IMG/VR virus record: IMGVR_UViG_3300030060_001384
Coordinates: 1 to 50,594 of that record
Reading direction: 5' to 3' (one strand)
Source of the DNA: a virus
Length of the DNA: 50,594 nucleotides
This document shows positions 1-50,594 of the stretch, one piece after another (the first letter of the stretch is position 1; every line of letters starts with the position of its first letter). Position numbers and translations under genes: made by a program. Under the pieces are notes generated by a model. It ran no database searches. It saw only the letters and a list, made by a program, of their open reading frames with translations, and was not told where the DNA came from.

Positions 1-1
1 C

Positions 2-40
2 GGTTCAGTTGAGTTGACCGTAATGGGAGACCTCGCATAA
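2..40 (+). CDS. tail-fibre paralog, C-terminal end only (partial)
   Basis: Only the last 12 codons of a gene that begins outside the window are present, ending in MGDLA. The same terminal GDLA closes the genes ending at 432, 818 and 49500, so this is the tail of another member of the short tail-fibre family. Its stop codon overlaps the ATG of the next gene (TAATG). The gene starting at 50321, which is cut by the other window end, is the obvious candidate for the missing front half. Confidence 0.6.
   Translation, partial: GSVELTVMGDLA
26..38 (+). repeat. 13-bp fibre-cassette border repeat, copy 1
   Basis: GGAGACCTCGCAT recurs perfectly at 418-430, 804-816 and 49486-49498. Each copy encodes the final G-D-L-A of one fibre-type gene, and its GGAG lies about 9-10 nt before the next start codon, so it also serves as that gene's Shine-Dalgarno sequence. 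Confidence 0.85.
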
Positions 41-432
41 TGGCAAGCACACTCAAAGTAGATACAATCACAGGGGTAACCACGGCTGGGTCTATTGCGA
101 TTACCGGCGAGGGCAACTCGACCACAACGAATTTGCAGCAGGGGTTGTGCAAAGCGTGGGCAGATGCTGAAAATGACGCAACTCGTAATGATTCATTAAA
201 TATTGCAAGTGGAACAGACAACGGAACTGGCGACTACGTATATGCGTTTACTAATGTGATGAACTCTGCCCTGTATATCACTCTTATGTCAGGTTCGTAT
301 GCTAATATTACTCAATTTGATAATGGCGAACAGGCAACAACATCCTATACGGTGCGTGGTTTTTCTAGGGCAGATAGCCTGACAGCCAGTGACCATCCTA
401 ATCATTCAGGTATATTTGGAGACCTCGCATAA
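40..432 (+). CDS. short tail-fibre/receptor-binding cassette protein
   Basis: This 130-aa protein opens with a TLKVDTITG motif and ends in GDLA, as do its paralogs at 432-818, 49102-49500 and 50321-end. The middle is Ser/Thr/Asn/Gly-rich and differs strongly between copies, which suits an exposed fibre or receptor-contact domain. The LK(V/A)DT start motif is one I associate with marine phage tail-fibre proteins; the receptor role is inferred. Start codon and ribosome-binding site lie in the 13-bp border repeat. The gene is part of a tandem array with TAATG overlaps, which implies coupled translation. Confidence 0.65.
   Translation: MASTLKVDTITGVTTAGSIAITGEGNSTTTNLQQGLCKAWADAENDATRNDSLNIASGTDNGTGDYVYAFTNVMNSALYITLMSGSYANITQFDNGEQATTSYTVRGFSRADSLTASDHPNHSGIFGDLA
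418..430 (+). repeat. 13-bp fibre-cassette border repeat, copy 2
   Basis: This is an exact copy of GGAGACCTCGCAT. It ends the gene at 40-432 and supplies the ribosome-binding site for the gene starting at 432. Confidence 0.85.
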
Positions 433-818
433 TGGCTAGTGAACTTAGAGTAAACACCCTGAAGGATGCTAGCGGGAACAACAGCATCGCCACCAGCTTT
501 GTTGCAGGGGGTAGTGCGAAGGCGTGGGTTAACTATAATCAAGCTACGCCAGCTACAGTAGACAGTTTTTCTGTAAGTTCTGTGACAGACAGCACAACAG
601 GACAATATAAAATTAATGTTTCATCTGCTTTTGCAAATACTGGTTACTCTTGTACTGGTTTAGCTAAAGGTGAAGCAGGAACAAGTTTGGGTAGAATATC
701 TGAAGACCACGATAATAGCAGGACAACATCTCAGATGCCAATCATTACATCTCGTATATCAGATGGAGCATACAGAGATTTAGTGAGTTCAGCTACAATT
801 CACGGAGACCTCGCATGA
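432..818 (+). CDS. short tail-fibre/receptor-binding cassette protein
   Basis: This 128-aa paralog has an N-terminal VNTLKDASGNNS motif followed by GGSAKAW, a block also seen in the fragment at 50321 (GSAKAW). It ends in GDLA. The central part is unlike the neighbouring copy, so the family keeps its ends and varies its middle. It sits between two cassette repeats, with its ATG overlapping the upstream stop. Fibre or adhesin function is inferred from position, composition and paralogy. Confidence 0.65.
   Translation: MASELRVNTLKDASGNNSIATSFVAGGSAKAWVNYNQATPATVDSFSVSSVTDSTTGQYKINVSSAFANTGYSCTGLAKGEAGTSLGRISEDHDNSRTTSQMPIITSRISDGAYRDLVSSATIHGDLA
804..816 (+). repeat. 13-bp fibre-cassette border repeat, copy 3
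   Basis: This is an exact copy of GGAGACCTCGCAT at the junction of the genes ending at 818 and starting at 815. The downstream start is ATGAG, so the stop and start codons overlap as ATGA. Confidence 0.85.
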
Positions 819-1909
819 GTAAGGCAGCAGAACTCGCCGCACTGATTGGTTCGCAGTCGGCGTTGTCAGACAGGAATCTTGTTATCAACGGTGCAATGGC
901 AATTAGTCAGAGAGGCACAAGCAGCACTGGTCAGGGTGCATCTGACTTGTTTCTTGTTGACCGCTTTCACCTAAACACAAACGGCAACTCTGCTGGCAGG
1001 TTTACTGTCACACAAGAATCTGATGGCCCAAGCGGCATACCTAATTCTTTAAAGCTGGCTTGCACCACATCCGACACATCCATTGCAGCCAGTGAAAGAT
1101 TTTTCATTGAGCAAAGACTAGAAGGGCAAAACCTTCAACGTATGAAAAAAGGCACCAGCGATGCACAGGCAATTACTGTGTCCTTCTATGTCAAGGGTAA
1201 CGCAGCAGCCACATATGTCGTAGGTATTTACGACGGTGATAACAGTCGTCAGATTGGCGCACAGTTTTCTGTAACGACATCTTGGGCCAGAGTATCTGTT
1301 ACATTTCCCGGTGATACAGGCGGTAGCGCACTAGATGATGACAATGCCGAAAGCCTGTCGCTCCGTTTCTACTTACACGCTGGCTCGACCTACACTGGCG
1401 GGACATTGCAGACAACGTGGGATACTGCTGCAAATAATGAACAAGTAGGCAGTGGGACTACCTCTTTCTTTGACAGCACTGACCGCACATTTTTCCTGAC
1501 AGGAGTGCAGATGGAACTTGGCGAGGTAGCTACGCCGTTTGAGCATCGGTCGTTTGCGGATGAGTTGGCTAAGTGCCAGAGGTATTGCTATGTGTGGGTT
1601 GCAGAAAACAACTATGGCAACTTTGCAAATGGTGGTGCGCTTAATACAAGCCAAGCAAGGGGTACAATGGTTTTGCCGCAAGTAATGAGAACACAGCCAT
1701 CACTAACTCAAAACGGAACATTTCGGGCAGTTTCTCACGGTAGCGGAATTACATCTGGAACAGTGTCTGTAACTATGGTTAGGGGACATACGCACAGTCC
1801 CTTCACCATGACGGCTGGCGATAGCGGTTCTTTAATAGCAGGAAGAGCATGTGAAATGGGTGCAGACAATGATAGCGATGCAGAGCTTGTATTGAGTGCG
1901 GAGTTATAG
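815..1909 (+). CDS. tail fibre protein with carbohydrate-binding-type beta domain
   Basis: This 364-aa protein has the N-terminal block NLVINGAMAISQRG followed by DRFHL, a signature I recognise from many phage tail-fibre and tailspike proteins with beta-sandwich binding domains. A second conserved block near residue 230 (FFLTGVQMELGEVATPFEH) precedes a Tyr/Cys-containing segment (CQRYCYVW) and a variable C-terminus. It is probably a receptor-binding fibre exposed on the virion. It follows the last cassette repeat and is the final and longest member of this fibre cluster. Confidence 0.75.
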   Translation: MSKAAELAALIGSQSALSDRNLVINGAMAISQRGTSSTGQGASDLFLVDRFHLNTNGNSAGRFTVTQESDGPSGIPNSLKLACTTSDTSIAASERFFIEQRLEGQNLQRMKKGTSDAQAITVSFYVKGNAAATYVVGIYDGDNSRQIGAQFSVTTSWARVSVTFPGDTGGSALDDDNAESLSLRFYLHAGSTYTGGTLQTTWDTAANNEQVGSGTTSFFDSTDRTFFLTGVQMELGEVATPFEHRSFADELAKCQRYCYVWVAENNYGNFANGGALNTSQARGTMVLPQVMRTQPSLTQNGTFRAVSHGSGITSGTVSVTMVRGHTHSPFTMTAGDSGSLIAGRACEMGADNDSDAELVLSAEL

Positions 1910-15671: not shown

Positions 15672-16012
15672 TGCTTCTTACCAAAGTCTACTTTGATGAT
15701 GTTCTTGCCCGGAAGTCTCTCTACGTTTGCACCGTTGCCTGTGACCTCTTCCATCACATGCTTCTCGTGTTCAAAACGCAGACGGGCCAGACCTGCCGCC
15801 ATGACCCGATCAAAGTCAGACTCCATTAGCTCTATCAGTCCTGACAACACAACAGTGCCAGCGGAAAAGTAGTCGTCGTCTTCATCCTCAATAGTCGTGT
15901 CGTAGGCAGCCATGTTGAGGCTGTCTTCGTCGTTTGTACGCAGGACGATGTACCACCTGTCTTGCAACAGGCTGGCCCTCTCCAGCATCGATTCCATATC
16001 ATTTTCGTCCAT
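15668..16012 (-). CDS. small acidic protein in replication operon
   Basis: This 114-aa acidic protein starts at 16012, chosen for its GGAGGG ribosome-binding site and because longer starts run deep into the endonuclease gene. It contains an Asp/Glu cluster (IEDEDDDYFSAG) and the C-terminal NIIKVDFGKK. No family recognised. It overlaps the endonuclease gene upstream and DUF3310 downstream, so it is translated within the replication operon. Confidence 0.55.
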   Translation of the reverse strand: MDENDMESMLERASLLQDRWYIVLRTNDEDSLNMAAYDTTIEDEDDDYFSAGTVVLSGLIELMESDFDRVMAAGLARLRFEHEKHVMEEVTGNGANVERLPGKNIIKVDFGKKQ

Positions 16013-16379
16013 TTTTGTACCAACCCTCCGGTATGCTGCCCTCGGCCCACTCGAAGCCATGGCGGTCAGCCCAAGCACCGTACGTGGTCTTTGACCCTTT
16101 GTAAATCTTGTTGCGTGCGTTCTGGAACAAAAGGCGAATATCCAAGTCCGGATTCTGTTCCTTGACAAGCAGCATCTTAACACGGTCGTTCTTGTCGAAC
16201 TTGCCCTTGGCCTCTACAAACACATCTGTGGACGGGAAGTAGAAGTCAGGTGTGTAGGTGCGAGGCTTGGGCACGAACGTAACCTTACGCTTCTCGTACT
16301 CGAACTTTACATCCCGCTGTCGCAACGCTCTAGCCACGTTCAACTCGAAGTGCGACCTGTATCCCCCCATGCTCTTCAT
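15999..16379 (-). CDS. T7-type endonuclease I (Holliday junction resolvase)
   Basis: This 126-aa protein matches phage T7 gp3. It resolves branched DNA before packaging and can help degrade host DNA. Conserved residues are Glu12 in SHFE, Asp45 in YTPDFYF, and Glu56-x-Lys58 in VEAKGK, the PD-(D/E)XK active site. The downstream part has the family blocks LDIRLLF and KGSKTTYGAWADRHGF. The start at 16379 is preferred: AGGA lies 8 nt upstream and the start overlaps the preceding stop as ATGA. Longer reading would add 36 residues with no family support. Confidence 0.9.
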   Translation of the reverse strand: MKSMGGYRSHFELNVARALRQRDVKFEYEKRKVTFVPKPRTYTPDFYFPSTDVFVEAKGKFDKNDRVKMLLVKEQNPDLDIRLLFQNARNKIYKGSKTTYGAWADRHGFEWAEGSIPEGWYKNGRK

Positions 16380-16756
16380 AGTGACATTCCTATCGAGTCC
16401 ATTCTTTTTTTCATGTAGCCTGCCAGTTTTGGGGATAGTCTTTGTATACTGTCCATTTCTCTTGAGAGGGGCAATATCGGCACACACACATTTGCTCCGT
16501 TGAAAGATAGGCGACTGATGTTTTGTAGTTCTATTTCGATCTGACGCACGTCCCGTGCCTCTGTCTCGGCAGTGAACAAACCCATGTCAGAATAGTTGTC
16601 TCGCAACGTGAAGGGCAGGCCGCGTTCGTGCTGACGCATGTACACGACCTTGCGCTCTCCACCGGCTTGCGAGACAGACTCGACAAAGACGTGGTGCATG
16701 TCCTTGTTCAACTCCATCAGATCGATGTCGTAGTCTCGCACGAAGATGTATGGCAT
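16376..16756 (-). CDS. hypothetical replication-operon protein
   Basis: This 126-aa protein begins MPYIFVRDYDIDLMELN. The start at 16756 overlaps the stop of the exonuclease gene (TGATG), and a longer start would lie entirely within that gene. The sequence looks like a compact alpha/beta fold with a basic C-terminus (LAGYMKKRMDSIGMSL). No family recognised. Placement between a recombination exonuclease and a junction resolvase suggests a part in DNA recombination, by context only. Confidence 0.55.
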   Translation of the reverse strand: MPYIFVRDYDIDLMELNKDMHHVFVESVSQAGGERKVVYMRQHERGLPFTLRDNYSDMGLFTAETEARDVRQIEIELQNISRLSFNGANVCVPILPLSREMDSIQRLSPKLAGYMKKRMDSIGMSL

Positions 16757-17649
16757 CACAGAACCTTCTTCTTCAGGCGGCTGTACCATGCCTTCGGTCT
16801 GTTCTTGGCACGGGACGTGACCTTGTCGTGATACACAGCGTTGGGCCAGCAGTGATGCTTGAAGCCACACATGCCACACTGTTTTGCAAGCAGCTTGTTG
16901 CCCGTGCGGACATCCTCGCCGTCCTTGCGGAACGTCTCGAATTCGTCCTTGAAGTCCACCCGAGGTTTGACACTCGGGTCTGTCAAGATTTTGACACGTC
17001 GCACAGCATCCTTGAGATATTCTTTCTTGTCGTCTTGGCACCAGTCAGGCACGTCCACGACAGCTATCTCTCCGCTGGACTTGTTGACCACGATCCAGCC
17101 GCCAAAGGGCAGGCCCACGGCCTCTGCGTACAGGAAGCCCTGCATAGCGTAGCCAAAGGGATCATCGCGCTTGATGGCCTCGTAGCCACCCGCGCCCGTG
17201 TACTTGTACTTGTACGCCCATTCGCTTGCAGACTTGATGTCCCAGACTTTCTCTTCGCCAAGCTCGTCACGCAGGATCACGTCAAGGGTGCCCTTGATCT
17301 TATGCCCAGCTATCTCTAGTTCGACGGAGCGTTGGAAGTCTACGATCTCGACGCCTGCCTCTCGCAGTGCCATCATCACGACGGCCTCTGTCAGATCGCC
17401 AAACAGGAAACGGAATATAGCGTTATACTCCATCTCTTCTTTGTGGCCCTCGCGCTCCAGCAGTTGCTGACACAGAGGGCGTCCCAGTCCAGACATGCGT
17501 ATACGATAGCCCTCGTCACCACGGCTCATTTGCTTGGTAATGGCTTCTGTGCAGTCTTTGGAAAAGGAATCAATGCTTTCCGGGGAGACATTTACGTCCC
17601 CCCGGAGTGCGTTTGTCAGGAAGTCTTGGACTTTAAGTTGCGTGAACAT
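16756..17649 (-). CDS. RecB/Cas4-like PD-(D/E)XK exonuclease with iron-sulfur cysteines
   Basis: In this 297-aa nuclease the active-site blocks are FLFGDLTEAV near residue 85, Asp123 in GTLDVIL, and Asp137-I-Lys139 in VWDIKSAS. Four cysteines placed as in Cas4/AddB-type 4Fe-4S nucleases are visible: Cys60 in LGRPLC, then Cys258, Cys261 and Cys267 in CGMCGFKHHC. It probably resects DNA ends during replication or recombination. Positions next to the ssDNA-binding candidate and endonuclease I fit a phage recombination module. It overlaps the upstream gene by 17 nt. Confidence 0.85.
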   Translation of the reverse strand: MFTQLKVQDFLTNALRGDVNVSPESIDSFSKDCTEAITKQMSRGDEGYRIRMSGLGRPLCQQLLEREGHKEEMEYNAIFRFLFGDLTEAVVMMALREAGVEIVDFQRSVELEIAGHKIKGTLDVILRDELGEEKVWDIKSASEWAYKYKYTGAGGYEAIKRDDPFGYAMQGFLYAEAVGLPFGGWIVVNKSSGEIAVVDVPDWCQDDKKEYLKDAVRRVKILTDPSVKPRVDFKDEFETFRKDGEDVRTGNKLLAKQCGMCGFKHHCWPNAVYHDKVTSRAKNRPKAWYSRLKKKVL

Positions 17650-18523: not shown

Positions 18524-20059
18524 TTACAAACTAACTTCTTCCAAGTCAAGCCAGTTTTTTCCTATTTTAATTTCTATGCCCACTGGCATGTCGTAGGTCA
18601 GTCCGTATCTGCGAATAGTTTCAAACGGTAAGGACAGCATTGCGTGTTGTAAAATATTTATGCACATGTCCTTTTCGTCTGGATGAACGTCCATGACAAT
18701 CGAGTCGTGGACCGTGTTGCAAATCACACTGCGGATGTTGACATCCGTAATTGTTTTCTGTAGGGACACCAGAGCCAGAGGGAGAAGGTCCGCAGTGGCA
18801 AACCCCTGCACAGGATAGTTGCATATGGCGGTGCGGTTGGTGGCTGTGCCCCACTCTGTCCACTTGCATCCGGGGAACATGTACTCCCGACCGGATGGTA
18901 GTCGGACCTTTTTGTATTTGACTGCATGTCGTTGCAACTCCCCGTGCCACATGGTGATGTCTTCGTACTTCTCCTTGAAAGCACGGTAGTATCGCTTCTG
19001 TGCATCCGTGCCTGTGGTGCCGCCGTACAGAGGCTTGAACGTGTGCGCCTTGGCCTGTTGCCGTGTGCAGCCGATCACGTCCGCTGTGTAGCTGTGTACG
19101 TCTGTGCCGTCTCGCACGTCAGCGTATGCCTGTTTGTCCCCCGCGAGAAAGCCAGCCACACGAAACTCTAGTTGCGAGTAATCTCCTTCCATGATAAGGC
19201 CGCCCTCGAAGCGGCTCTCGACAACCTTGCGTATTGCGAAGGTATTACCACGTGGCATATTTTGAAAGTTCGGGTTACGAGACGAAAGGCGACCCGTCGC
19301 CGTAACACATTGCATGAATTCCGGATGGATGAAGCCGTGGTCATCGACGTTGTTTTCCATGCCCTCGACGAACGTGTTGATGTACGTCTTGAGGGCGTTG
19401 TAGCGAGTATACGCTGAAACAAATTCATGTGCATCCCCCTGCAAGTCTTCGAGTTGCTCTTCCAGTGTGGTCTTGTCAGTGCGGAATCCTGCTGACGCTG
19501 TGTCAAACGAGTTGCGTGGCACGATCTTGAAGCCAGCCACTCTGCCAGTAGACGTGTAGAACACACCACTGCCGCCACAAGCCTTGCACACACGCATGGC
19601 TTTGCCCGGGCTGCCATCCTTGCGGATGCTTTGTATGCGGCCTGTGCCGTTGCATTCCTGACACATCTCACCCCGTGTGCGATACACCACGTCTGTGTGA
19701 CGACGTACGATGCCGCGAAACTCGTTCTCCGACATGCGTGTGCGTTGTTTAGGCTTCATGGTCGAGCCTCGCATCTCATGCCCCAGATTGAACATACGCG
19801 CCCACTCCTTCTTGTCACGCACACGACGCGAATACAACAGGACACTGCGGTCATCTGGGCTAGACAGATTGATCGGCGTGTCACCCATGGCTTCACGAGC
19901 CAACTCCATCAGCCGCGCCTCTAGCTCCAGCATCTCTTCTTCGTACTGCTTGCGTATATCAGCAAGCGTGTCCAGATTGATACGCAGTCCGTTGCGCTCA
20001 ATTTGTGACAATACGTTGGTCATCTCCAATGACAGCTTCAGTGTCGGTACTAGGCTCAT
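18524..20059 (-). CDS. family A DNA polymerase domain with DnaJ-like zinc insertion
   Basis: This 511-aa polymerase subunit copies the phage genome. Motif A is DYSQLE (Asp293). The O-helix reads RQQAKAHTFKPLYGG with Lys337, Phe341 and Tyr345. Motif C is HDS (His451, Asp452). An inserted zinc motif, CQECNGTG (Cys133, Cys136) and CKACGGSG (Cys158, Cys161), resembles the DnaJ central domain. A DnaJ-like insert between exonuclease and polymerase domains is, as I recall, a hallmark of HMO-2011-type phages. Here the exonuclease is a separate, overlapping gene. The start has GAGGAG about 7 nt upstream, which supports independent initiation. Confidence 0.92.
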   Translation of the reverse strand: MSLVPTLKLSLEMTNVLSQIERNGLRINLDTLADIRKQYEEEMLELEARLMELAREAMGDTPINLSSPDDRSVLLYSRRVRDKKEWARMFNLGHEMRGSTMKPKQRTRMSENEFRGIVRRHTDVVYRTRGEMCQECNGTGRIQSIRKDGSPGKAMRVCKACGGSGVFYTSTGRVAGFKIVPRNSFDTASAGFRTDKTTLEEQLEDLQGDAHEFVSAYTRYNALKTYINTFVEGMENNVDDHGFIHPEFMQCVTATGRLSSRNPNFQNMPRGNTFAIRKVVESRFEGGLIMEGDYSQLEFRVAGFLAGDKQAYADVRDGTDVHSYTADVIGCTRQQAKAHTFKPLYGGTTGTDAQKRYYRAFKEKYEDITMWHGELQRHAVKYKKVRLPSGREYMFPGCKWTEWGTATNRTAICNYPVQGFATADLLPLALVSLQKTITDVNIRSVICNTVHDSIVMDVHPDEKDMCINILQHAMLSLPFETIRRYGLTYDMPVGIEIKIGKNWLDLEEVSL

Positions 20060-20603
20060 TGTATAGCTCCTCGAATGTTACGCCATAGGCGTCCAGTTGT
20101 TTCAGTGCAATCTCTTCCGTGGCAAGCACGTCTGCACGACCGTACTCTTCTATTATCTCCCACGGTATGTCGTAGAACGTCTTGCCCTCTTTGAGATACG
20201 GCTCCACAAGGTCCGTCTCCTTTTGGGTGACGTTATACTTTTTTGCAAGAGCAGCAAGTCCAAGAGGCCAACGTCTTGCACGGGCCAAAAGATATTCCGC
20301 AACCATCGTATCATAGATATGTCCCTCGTATGTAAAGCCACACTCTCGTATCCACGTCAGGTCAAACTTGATGTTGTGACCCACGAGAACGTCAGCATAG
20401 TTCAATGCCAGTTGGAAGCCTTCCGTCGCAGCCGCAGTCGGTGGCTCCGTCGAATGATAGTAACAGTCGTATGCCACTCTGCTTTGTAGCCACTTGTATC
20501 CGATTGATACCAACCTGTTGCCAAAGTACGGCAGAGGCGTGTGTCCACCACCACGCTTCTCGACGTGGGTTGTCTCCACGTCAAATGTCAGGACATTTAC
20601 CAT
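19998..20603 (-). CDS. 3'-5' proofreading exonuclease (DnaQ/PolA type), separate from polymerase
   Basis: This 201-aa protein has all three exonuclease motifs: DVET (Asp8, Glu10), GHNIKFD (Asn77, Asp81) and EYGRADVL (Tyr154, Asp158). These bind the two metal ions that remove mismatched nucleotides. It ends 62 nt inside the polymerase gene, which is read in another frame. Together they reconstruct a T7-like or PolA-like exonuclease-polymerase. Either the gene pair is a true split or a frameshift has separated the domains; the polymerase's own ribosome-binding site favours a split. Confidence 0.88.
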   Translation of the reverse strand: MVNVLTFDVETTHVEKRGGGHTPLPYFGNRLVSIGYKWLQSRVAYDCYYHSTEPPTAAATEGFQLALNYADVLVGHNIKFDLTWIRECGFTYEGHIYDTMVAEYLLARARRWPLGLAALAKKYNVTQKETDLVEPYLKEGKTFYDIPWEIIEEYGRADVLATEEIALKQLDAYGVTFEELYNEPSTDTEAVIGDDQRIVTN

Positions 20604-48655: not shown

Positions 48656-49105
48656 ATGCCATACATAGGTCAAAAAGTTCCGGGGTCTTATCAGGCTACG
48701 AAAGCTGTCCAGCGTTTCAACGGCGATGGCAGTGACACTACGTTTACCCTGACCACCACAGTCTCTTCTGTGCAAGACGTGCTGGTATCGGTGGACGGCG
48801 TAGTGCAGGATACCTCTGCGTACACAATCCCTGACGGCACGACACTCACCTTCACTGCTGCCCCGTCGAGTGGCACAGGCAACATCTTTGTAAATTACCT
48901 TGCACCCCAAGCGGGTACGATTGTGCCACCCGCAGAGAACAAAGGCAACTTCAAGGGCGGTGGTCTGTTCCGTACCAACGCACAGTCGTTGACTGCTGAC
49001 ACAACCATCCTTGCAACTGAGAACGCAAACGTGACAGGCCCGTTTACCGTAGCCAGCGGTGTGACCCTGACCGTTGAAAGCGGCGGGACATTGGTGACGC
49101 TATGA
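48656..49105 (+). CDS. fibre-type beta protein
   Basis: In this 149-aa protein the N-terminal QRFNGDGSDTTFTLTTTV and VQDVLVSVDGVVQDTSAYTI pattern is typical of phage tail fibre adaptor domains. It is followed by a Gly/Pro segment (GNFKGGGLFRTN) and a Thr/Val-rich C-terminus. It may connect fibres to the tail or be a short fibre itself. It overlaps the next gene by 4 nt (ATGA). Confidence 0.65.
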   Translation: MPYIGQKVPGSYQATKAVQRFNGDGSDTTFTLTTTVSSVQDVLVSVDGVVQDTSAYTIPDGTTLTFTAAPSSGTGNIFVNYLAPQAGTIVPPAENKGNFKGGGLFRTNAQSLTADTTILATENANVTGPFTVASGVTLTVESGGTLVTL

Positions 49106-49500
49106 GTACGCTGAAGGCAGATACCATCCAAAGCACCAGCGGCGGTGCGGCTACGCTGACGAAGCAACAGGCAGCGAAGATATGGTCTAACTTTGACGGC
49201 ACCACCAGCGGTATTACTCCTCGTGATAGCTTCAATGTATCAAGCGTTGGAGACACAAACACCGGCACTTACACAATCAATCACACAAACGCCATGTCAA
49301 ACAATGACTACTGTGCTGCTTTGATGGGGCGTATGCAAAGAGGCACAAGCAACAGTGGTGCTGCAAACGGGATTGACTCATCAGATGGTGACTCAACTGT
49401 TTTAACAACCAGTCACATATTAGCTTACATCAATGTTGCAACCACCAACGATGCTGATGTGCCTATTGGTGGGTCAATGGTGATGGGAGACCTCGCATGA
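49102..49500 (+). CDS. short tail-fibre/receptor-binding cassette protein
   Basis: This 132-aa member of the cassette family begins STLKADTIQSTSGGAATL and ends MVMGDLA, the same start and end signatures as the genes at 40, 432 and 50321. The middle differs from the other copies. Its last codons are the border repeat that provides the ribosome-binding site of the S74 fibre gene. Confidence 0.65.
   Translation: MSTLKADTIQSTSGGAATLTKQQAAKIWSNFDGTTSGITPRDSFNVSSVGDTNTGTYTINHTNAMSNNDYCAALMGRMQRGTSNSGAANGIDSSDGDSTVLTTSHILAYINVATTNDADVPIGGSMVMGDLA
49486..49498 (+). repeat. 13-bp fibre-cassette border repeat, copy 4
   Basis: This is an exact copy of GGAGACCTCGCAT between the short fibre gene and the S74-type fibre gene, about 50 kb from copies 1-3 in window coordinates but adjacent to them if the genome is circular. 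Confidence 0.85.
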
Positions 49501-50321
49501 GTGAAGTAAAGACAAACAAAATCACCAGCCTTGCGAGTAACAACGACATCACCCTCGACCCTGATGGCACGGGCGATGTTGTCGTAAAAACAGGTTCTAA
49601 TGAACAGGATGCTCTACTCGTTAAGCAGTCTGACGGCACAGATGTTGGCTCTCTACGCATCAATAACGGCGCTTTTATATTAAAGGGTAAAAACTCATCT
49701 CAACCGATTCAAATTCAATCGCATGATGGCAATGAGGACATTGAGGTAGACCCAGATGGGTTTATCAAGTTTGAAACTGCCGGTTCAGAACGGATGCGTA
49801 TCGACAGCAGCGGCCGATTGTTTATGGGTGTTACTAGCAACACTACTGGAGGAGAAAGTTTCACTGTTGATGCCGCTGATGGTTTTCGACTGTTTTGCTC
49901 TAGAGGTAGTACGTCTGCGAGAGAGCAAATTATTTTCTTTAACCCTAACGGCGATGTCGGTTCAATCGACACAAGCGGAACATCCACGTCTTACAACACA
50001 TCGTCCGACCATCGCCTAAAGCAAGGCGTAGAGGACATGACCGGCGCAATCGACCGCGTCAAGGCGCTAGCTCCCAAACGCTTTCAGTTCATCGCAGACG
50101 CCGACACAACGGTTGATGGCTTCCTTGCCCACGAGGCACAGGCAGTCGTGCCAGAGGCTGTCACCGGCACTAAAGATGAAGTAAACGAAAACGGTGATGC
50201 TGTCATGCAGGGGATTGACCAAGCCAAGCTGGTGCCGCTTCTGACCGGCGCACTGCAAGAGGCGATTGCCAAGATTGAAACGCTTGAGACTAAAGTCGCA
50301 GCGTTAGAGGCAGGTGAGTAA
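49497..50321 (+). CDS. tail fibre with C-terminal S74 intramolecular chaperone
   Basis: In this 274-aa protein a beta-fibre N-terminal part (SNNDITLDPDGTGDVVVKTG, SERMRIDSSGRLFMG) leads to the S74 peptidase/chaperone domain from about residue 165: SSDHRLKQGVEDM, PKRFQFIADADTTVDGFLAHEAQAVVPEAV, and a final coiled coil (IETLETKVAAL). The SDxRLK motif holds the Ser-Lys pair expected for self-cleavage after trimer folding. It starts in the border repeat and overlaps the next gene (TAATG). Confidence 0.85.
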   Translation: MSEVKTNKITSLASNNDITLDPDGTGDVVVKTGSNEQDALLVKQSDGTDVGSLRINNGAFILKGKNSSQPIQIQSHDGNEDIEVDPDGFIKFETAGSERMRIDSSGRLFMGVTSNTTGGESFTVDAADGFRLFCSRGSTSAREQIIFFNPNGDVGSIDTSGTSTSYNTSSDHRLKQGVEDMTGAIDRVKALAPKRFQFIADADTTVDGFLAHEAQAVVPEAVTGTKDEVNENGDAVMQGIDQAKLVPLLTGALQEAIAKIETLETKVAALEAGE

Positions 50322-50594
50322 TGGCATTCGGTACACTCAAAGCAGATACCCTGACGCACTCGACTGCGGGTTCGCTGGCTACGAATTTTGTTGTGAATGG
50401 TAGTGCGAAGGCGTGGATGCAAGCTGTTGGTGATGGTACGAGTTACAACGATAGTTTTAACACAAGTTCTTTGACTGATGTAGGCACGGGGAATATCAGA
50501 GTCACTTACACAAACAATATGTCTAATGATGATTCTGCTTTTACTCTAGGGCATCAGTATCAGTCTTTAAGTGGTTCGTCAGCTTTTGCTGCAA
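50321..50594 (+). CDS. short tail-fibre cassette protein, N-terminal part (truncated by window end)
   Basis: The first 91 codons of another cassette-family member are visible: FGTLKADTLTHSTAGSLATN, then GSAKAW, like the paralog at 432. The gene runs off the window. With 128-132 aa expected, about 40 residues are missing, of which the last 12 may be those at 2-40. Joining the two ends directly does not keep the frame, so some bases are absent. Confidence 0.65.
   Translation, partial: MAFGTLKADTLTHSTAGSLATNFVVNGSAKAWMQAVGDGTSYNDSFNTSSLTDVGTGNIRVTYTNNMSNDDSAFTLGHQYQSLSGSSAFAA

Follow-up and report, generated by a model that had tools for sequence, protein, structure and literature searches.

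Cassettes move singly between the seats of a tandem phage tail-fibre array

Results

Features of the window

The window analysed here, 50,594 nucleotides long, is a linear IMG/VR virus contig (IMGVR_UViG_3300030060_001384). Comparison with relatives places both of its ends within one fibre array, the middle of which is missing, with a gap of about 3 kb between positions 50594 and 1. The window is thus an array cut open: slot 1 holds p3 (49102-49500), slot 2 a fibre with an S74 chaperone tip and slot 3 the truncated p4 (50321-end), and after the gap come the end of slot 4 at 1-40, p1 (40-432) in slot 5 and p2 (432-818) in slot 6. The features of the array, followed by two candidate genes for exchange machinery, are:

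48656-49105, plus strand: adaptor gene of unit 1, which heads the array; short protein with a T7-tail-fibre N-terminal domain (Pfam Phage_T7_tail, 8e-7; phrog_18673)
49102-49173, plus strand: seat-specific N-terminus of the alpha gene (slot 1, p3), which remains with the seat (concordance of slot and N-terminal type; alignment)
49174-49485, plus strand: exchangeable p3 cassette (slot 1; cross-seat matches, alignment)
49486-49498, plus strand: 3' border GGAGACCTCGCAT, comprising GDLA and the stop overlap, and ribosome-binding site for the next gene
49497-50321, plus strand: S74-chaperone-tipped fibre gene in the beta seat (slot 2; Pfam Peptidase_S74, 1.4e-8)
50321-50594, plus strand: gamma gene (slot 3, p4), cut by the contig end; 5' border AGTGCGAAGGCGTGG at about 50402-50416
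1-40, plus strand: 3' end of the slot-4 alpha gene, border at 26-38, the rest missing from the contig (the frame ends in GSVELTVMGDLA and a stop; array grammar)
40-432, plus strand: beta gene (slot 5, p1); cassette at about 148-417, border at 418-430
432-818, plus strand: gamma gene (slot 6, p2); cassette at about 516-803, border at 804-816
815-1909, plus strand: fibre-like gene closing the array, homologue of HMO-2011 gp28 (phrog_4492 tail fiber, 1e-57)
15999-16487, minus strand: T7-type endonuclease I (Holliday-junction resolvase), candidate exchange machinery (Pfam Phage_endo_I, 5e-38; phrog_945)
16756-17649, minus strand: Cas4/RecB-type exonuclease, candidate exchange machinery (phrog_1990, 2e-27)

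The initial annotation regarded p1 to p4 as four short paralogs, and all four match phrog_11355 'tail fiber protein' (6e-9 to 5e-19, over most of the protein), the family that HMO-2011 gp40 matches at 1e-38. The signatures by which they had been recognized are looser than described: GSAKAW is literal in p2 and p4 and reads GLCKAW in p1 and QAAKIW in p3, LK(V/A)DT reads LRVNT in p2, and the GDLA end is not visible in p4 because that gene is truncated at the contig end. The perfect 13-bp sequence reported with them, GGAGACCTCGCAT, does occur four times (26-38, 418-430, 804-816 and 49486-49498, all on the plus strand), with no copy in 100 dinucleotide shuffles of the window. Each copy encodes G-D-L-A and the first base of the stop codon, and its GGAG precedes the next ATG by 8 nt where the overlap is ATGA and by 10 nt where it is TAATG, so that the proposed double role, ending one gene and placing GGAG before the next, holds at 4/4 copies. 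Only one of the four lies within 49102-50594, the interval given for the cassettes; the copy at 26-38 ends the gene that is cut off by the window start.

The best ten tblastn records for the DNA polymerase are HMO-2011, HTVC033P and CRP phages, at 39-49% identity over 96-100%. It is a family A polymerase of the HMO-2011 type, the feature by which this phage group is recognized, and on that ground we take the window to be a contig of an HMO-2011-type phage. The polymerase (18524-20059) is 41% identical to that of HMO-2011 (the closest of the best ten records is HTVC033P, at 49%) and the adaptor (48656-49105) shares 94% amino acid identity with HMO-2011 gp41; the fibre module therefore seems to travel between distantly related phages of the HMO-2011 type. 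We note that the polymerase and its 3'-5' exonuclease part occupy two overlapping frames on the minus strand (18524-20059 and 19998-20603), and that a DnaJ-like CxxCxGxG zinc motif lies inside the polymerase ORF; a frameshift or a split gene is possible.

Array organization across phages

Three scans of viral contigs yielded 276 loci, which were grouped by shared k-mers; 230 viral loci are non-redundant. Of 279 sequences searched with an iterated profile, 271 contained family ORFs, 967 in all, and in loci selected by the pattern itself 151 of 157 sites of the 17-mer GGAGACCTCGCATRATG lie at the 3' ends of family genes. The gene order in relatives is adaptor, alpha, beta, gamma, a gene of ~158 amino acids, a 124-amino-acid gene, a variable gene, a second adaptor (~154 amino acids), alpha, beta, gamma and a fibre gene of ~350 amino acids. 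Across the 230 loci the array has a fixed grammar of two adaptor-alpha-beta-gamma units with two conserved genes between them. N-terminal type and seat agree near-perfectly among typable genes, and GGAG is the ribosome-binding site of nearly all coupled genes. Seat number and order are largely fixed, so of the additions, losses and swaps of cassettes that had been envisaged, swapping of content outweighs gain or loss.

Beta seats sometimes hold other fibres (slot 2 is occupied by a non-family gene in 28/102 arrays, slot 5 in 8/68), and whole-gene replacement occurs there, as with the S74 fibre of the window. Such occupants come in pairs, a fibre or C1q protein with a small tail-fibre-assembly-like protein (L279:2503-3277 and L279:5736-6546; HMO-2011 gp30-31 and gp38-39). 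The isolate HMO-2011 (L279) keeps the array order, with slot 5 taken by a C1q gene pair. Of the two conserved genes that separate the units in the two-unit arrays seen (L126, L140 and L279), the first, at ~158 amino acids, ends in xLAA and gave no family match; the 124-amino-acid gene ends in SPYA and belongs to phrog_20196. Two contigs have a single unit with the closing gene directly after adaptor-alpha-beta-gamma (L220:5009-7792 and L053:5075-6895, array oriented on the plus strand), which could represent an ancestral state with one unit or the outcome of a collapse between the two units. One-unit arrays are also present in two freshwater cyanophage isolates, Microcystis phage Mel-JY33 (L280) and Nostoc phage Nsp-JY18 (L283). 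Mel-JY33, at 67% GC, has the exact border GGAGACCTCGCATGAG twice in the same gene context, although the protein itself is only 36% identical, and Nsp-JY18 has the variant border GGGAGCCTCGCATAATG. A scan of bacterial genomes with p2 found no relative.

Cassettes move singly between seats

Each gene of the array consists of a seat-specific N-terminus of ~30 codons, a hypervariable cassette and the GDLA end. Cassettes are common to different seats of different genomes, in 110 pairs at 60% amino acid identity or more, compared with 90 same-seat pairs. In the 50 cross-seat pairs at 85% or more, which come from 70 contigs and are not phylogenetically independent, similarity most often starts at the first base of the xKxW motif (0 nt) and ends at the last base of the 13-mer (nt 13), and nucleotide identity at the joints drops over a few bases from about 0.9 to about 0.35. 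In a minority of these pairs similarity runs beyond the blocks on either side. Breakpoints thus mostly fall on the 13-mer, relative to which the initial annotation had suggested mapping them, and translational coupling is kept. However, the 13-mer is the 3' border only, and the unit exchanged is not the whole gene but the part from about codon 30 to GDLA: the 5' crossover falls inside the gene at xKxW, so the N-terminus stays with its seat. For the alpha and gamma seats a whole-gene cassette is ruled out, since similarity begins at xKxW and not at the ATG. The simple 5' motif does not fit about 15-30% of alpha, beta and gamma genes, and 44% in slot 4, so the 5' junction is the looser of the two.

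The p3 cassette of the window recurs in slot 4 of locus L236 (93% amino acid identity), and L157 and L252 carry it in slot 3. Base-by-base alignment shows the surrounding sequences to be unlike. Near relatives of the p2 cassette, at 76-78% identity over the whole protein, occupy slots 1 and 4 of L201, L203 and L204. Neighbouring cassettes are shared in 0/39 cross-seat pairs and 16/69 same-seat pairs; because neighbours never accompany a cassette into another seat, cassettes move one at a time, from seat to seat and from genome to genome; their junctions lie at the blocks, and the linkers are kept. The share of pairs in the same seat falls with cassette divergence from 0.61 to 0.40 to 0.26 (0.17 would be expected if seats were irrelevant). 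Apparent swaps could also arise from metagenome assembly chimeras at conserved linkers, since the majority of loci come from metagenomic contigs and the same-seat linkers, at close to 100 bp, could confuse assemblers. Cross-seat pairs, however, have only about 12 bp in common at the joints, many pairs are 60-90% identical and so diverged too long ago for an assembly artefact, and the isolate HMO-2011 has the same array, in which the slot-4 cassette, that of gp32, is best matched by the slot-5 cassette of L252. We regard chimeras as the least probable of all the explanations considered.

Replacement rather than drift is evident where the adaptors of two loci share 95% identity or more over 360 nt. 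In 101 of 112 such pairs the slot-1 cassettes share less than 0.6 identity, in 6 they exceed 0.9 and in none do they fall at 0.7-0.9, alongside a median identity of 0.88 for the slot-1 N-terminus. Near-identical relatives therefore differ in their cassettes, and the outcome that the initial annotation had named as evidence against exchange, relatives with the same cassettes in the same order and no breakpoints at the repeats, did not occur. Shuffling could still be absent if the middle of each gene underwent fast point divergence between two constrained ends, the coupling site and the GDLA peptide; the repeat is both peptide and ribosome-binding site, and BLAST ends would snap to such blocks regardless. 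Sharp ends of local similarity between loci do lie there, passing from similar to dissimilar 60-105 nt after the ATG and from dissimilar to similar 10-20 nt before the stop (196/274). As alignments snap to conserved blocks, we treat this histogram as descriptive only and use the cross-seat pairs as evidence. Near-identical cassettes in different seats of different genomes, together with the lack of intermediate identities between close flanks, make point divergence extremely improbable.

Intragenomic duplication is ruled out as the source of cassettes: 3/1200 within-locus cassette pairs reach 50% identity, a share similar to that of random between-locus pairs. With duplicates so rare within genomes, whole-gene duplication, the other refuting outcome named in the initial annotation, also fails to account for the repeats. 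We counted 578 cassette families, 448 of them seen once, giving a Chao1 estimate of about 1,630 that is crude because the loci are not a random sample.

Border blocks are conserved as DNA

The 5' block has the consensus GCGAAGGCKTGG and encodes xKxW. We compared codon choice at both blocks with background usage in low, mid and high GC tertiles, restricting this control to loci that had not been fetched by the repeat (L122 onward). The border Asp is GAC in 63/96/100% of cases, against a background of 27/36/42% and against 31-37% (31% at mid GC) for an internal conserved Asp. In TAATG joints, where the third base is unforced, the border Ala is GCA in 83/85/95%, compared with about 40%. For the 5' block the figures are 48/83/86% AAG for Lys, compared with about 20% (mid-GC background 22%), and 33/69/75% GCG for Ala, compared with about 8-14%. 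The GGA of the border is explained by the ribosome-binding site and the remaining codons are not. Synonymous codons are thus held against local usage, demonstrating that a ribosome-binding site and a peptide cannot be the sole cause of the conserved blocks. The Leu codon inside the 3' block varies (CTC, CTA or TTA); used to ask whether the border goes with the cassette or with the linker, it matches in 50% of cases with the cassette and 61% with a matching linker, over a baseline of 33%.

We favour, with a probability of roughly three in four, a multi-seat receptor-probe array whose single cassettes are exchanged at two short blocks by homology-guided recombination with co-infecting phages. 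Each seat gene joins an N-terminus, presumably the docking part, to a beta-rich cassette, presumably the receptor-binding head, and to GDLA; the cassette is bounded by the 5' block and by the 3' block that carries the stop and the next Shine-Dalgarno sequence. In a cell infected by two phages, annealing-type recombination by phage exonuclease and endonuclease I would join molecules at these blocks and at the linkers of roughly 100 bp (GDLA plus the next N-terminus) that are conserved between phages. Products would retain the frame, the docking end and the downstream ribosome-binding site, and selection by host surfaces would maintain the diversity of the array. Linkers of this length would make same-seat exchange easy, whereas a move between different seats has to be resolved in about 12 bp. 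A stretch of 13 bp is little for homologous recombination of the ordinary kind, which counts against this reading. We infer that the joining is done by the phages' own enzymes, and the contig carries a T7-type endonuclease I, an exonuclease and a replisome.

The main rival is illegitimate recombination followed by selection, in which joints form anywhere, only those at domain edges that keep the frame, docking end and ribosome-binding site survive, and the blocks serve assembly and translation rather than guidance. Selection alone can put joints at domain edges, and GGAG is required by nearly all coupled genes. In mosaics between temperate phages, De Paepe et al. 2014 (PMC3945230) found traces of flanking homology in only about one case in three. 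Illegitimate joining would not, however, explain why synonymous positions (GAC, GCA in TAATG joints, GCG-AAG) are held when internal conserved residues are not, nor why junctions cluster within a few nucleotides. Recent cross-seat moves also prefer homologous seats, which have longer N-terminal homology in common (13/29 against 20% expected, p = 0.002, for pairs that are not independent), a preference absent in older divergence bands. This preference argues modestly for homology guidance over pure selection, and we consider illegitimate recombination unlikely, at perhaps one chance in several.

A dedicated enzyme, such as a site-specific recombinase or homing-type nuclease, might instead recognize the border and move cassettes. 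The 3' block is strikingly invariant, and the Microcystis phage, at 67% GC, has GGAGACCTCGCATGAG twice. Against this, the 5' and 3' blocks are unlike in sequence, the Leu codon of the 3' block varies, and the contig, of which roughly 3 kb is missing, contains no reverse transcriptase (PF00078), tyrosine integrase (PF00589) or serine recombinase/resolvase (PF00239). The proposal that the system works with no reverse transcriptase or invertase is borne out within this incomplete contig, where no gene was found for a diversity-generating retroelement, invertase or integrase as the mover. We judge a dedicated enzyme very improbable.

Predicted structure and function

Predicted models of p3 and p2 are all-beta, with mean pLDDT of 76 and 86. 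A fold search of the PDB with these models gave no match below E = 0.001, the top weak matches including a phage tailspike and TNF-type heads, and a profile search of the PDB gave none; matches in BFVD were small phage proteins and tail fibres. Family annotation, genomic context and this weak fold resemblance suggest that the cassettes bind receptors and contribute to host range.

Discussion

Beyond homology-guided exchange, a stronger version is conceivable, although we hold it more doubtful than probable: the two blocks may be evolved exchange sites of a population-wide cartridge system, in which well over a thousand receptor-probe cassettes fit any of about six seats and give each virion a combinatorial set, perhaps as fibre heads of three different chains (alpha, beta and gamma); phages would then recombine at one nucleotide signal that ends the protein, supplies the stop and binds the ribosome. 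Phages of the HMO-2011 type are counted among the most abundant viral groups of the sea (PMC9038755). If each carries a combinatorial set of probes in six seats, replenished from a common pool, marine host range could change by the swap of one 300-bp cartridge, without waiting for point mutations, and the target of each seat and the rate of cassette movement would be measurable from existing long-read viromes. One short sequence acting as protein end, ribosome-binding site and exchange border would be a compact way to keep swapped genes expressed. The system also bears on the old question of whether mosaic joints in phages are guided by boundary sequences or merely filtered by selection.

The gp28-gp41 array of Puniceispirillum phage HMO-2011 has the same adaptor, alpha, gamma, two intervening genes, W-adaptor, closing gene and GDLA borders but is annotated merely as a run of tail-fibre genes, and the HMO-2011-type papers searched (PMC9038755, PMC6918029) do not describe the cassette structure or the border. 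Metaviromic islands, variable host-recognition modules recognized from read recruitment (Mizuno et al. 2014, PMC3909814), likewise place hypervariable tail-fibre, C1q and lectin-like genes in otherwise similar genomes; seats, borders and single-cassette movement are absent from that account, as is the word 'recombination' from its text. Hypervariable host-recognition islands of marine phages (PMC3909814) and boundary mosaicism are already known; the cassette-and-seat design was not found described in the literature searched, which covered few subscription papers.

Lambdoid and other phages have short conserved boundary sequences between modules, with mosaic joints at them. The arrays resemble these in that the joints of the 50 cross-seat pairs coincide with conserved sequence and that this sequence is conserved beyond coding need. 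Unlike in lambdoid mosaicism, two distinct blocks lie within each of about six tandem seats, one block doubles as stop and ribosome-binding site, and a common cassette pool serves every seat. Diversity-generating retroelements, invertible tail-fibre switches and shufflons also vary receptor-binding ends on a fixed N-terminus, but they differ from the present case, where reverse transcriptase, invertase and integrase were not found and exchange is between genomes rather than within one. Polymorphic toxins of the CDI/Rhs type likewise exchange a variable C-terminal module behind a conserved motif; here, in contrast, both borders of the cassette lie inside the gene and there are several tandem seats.
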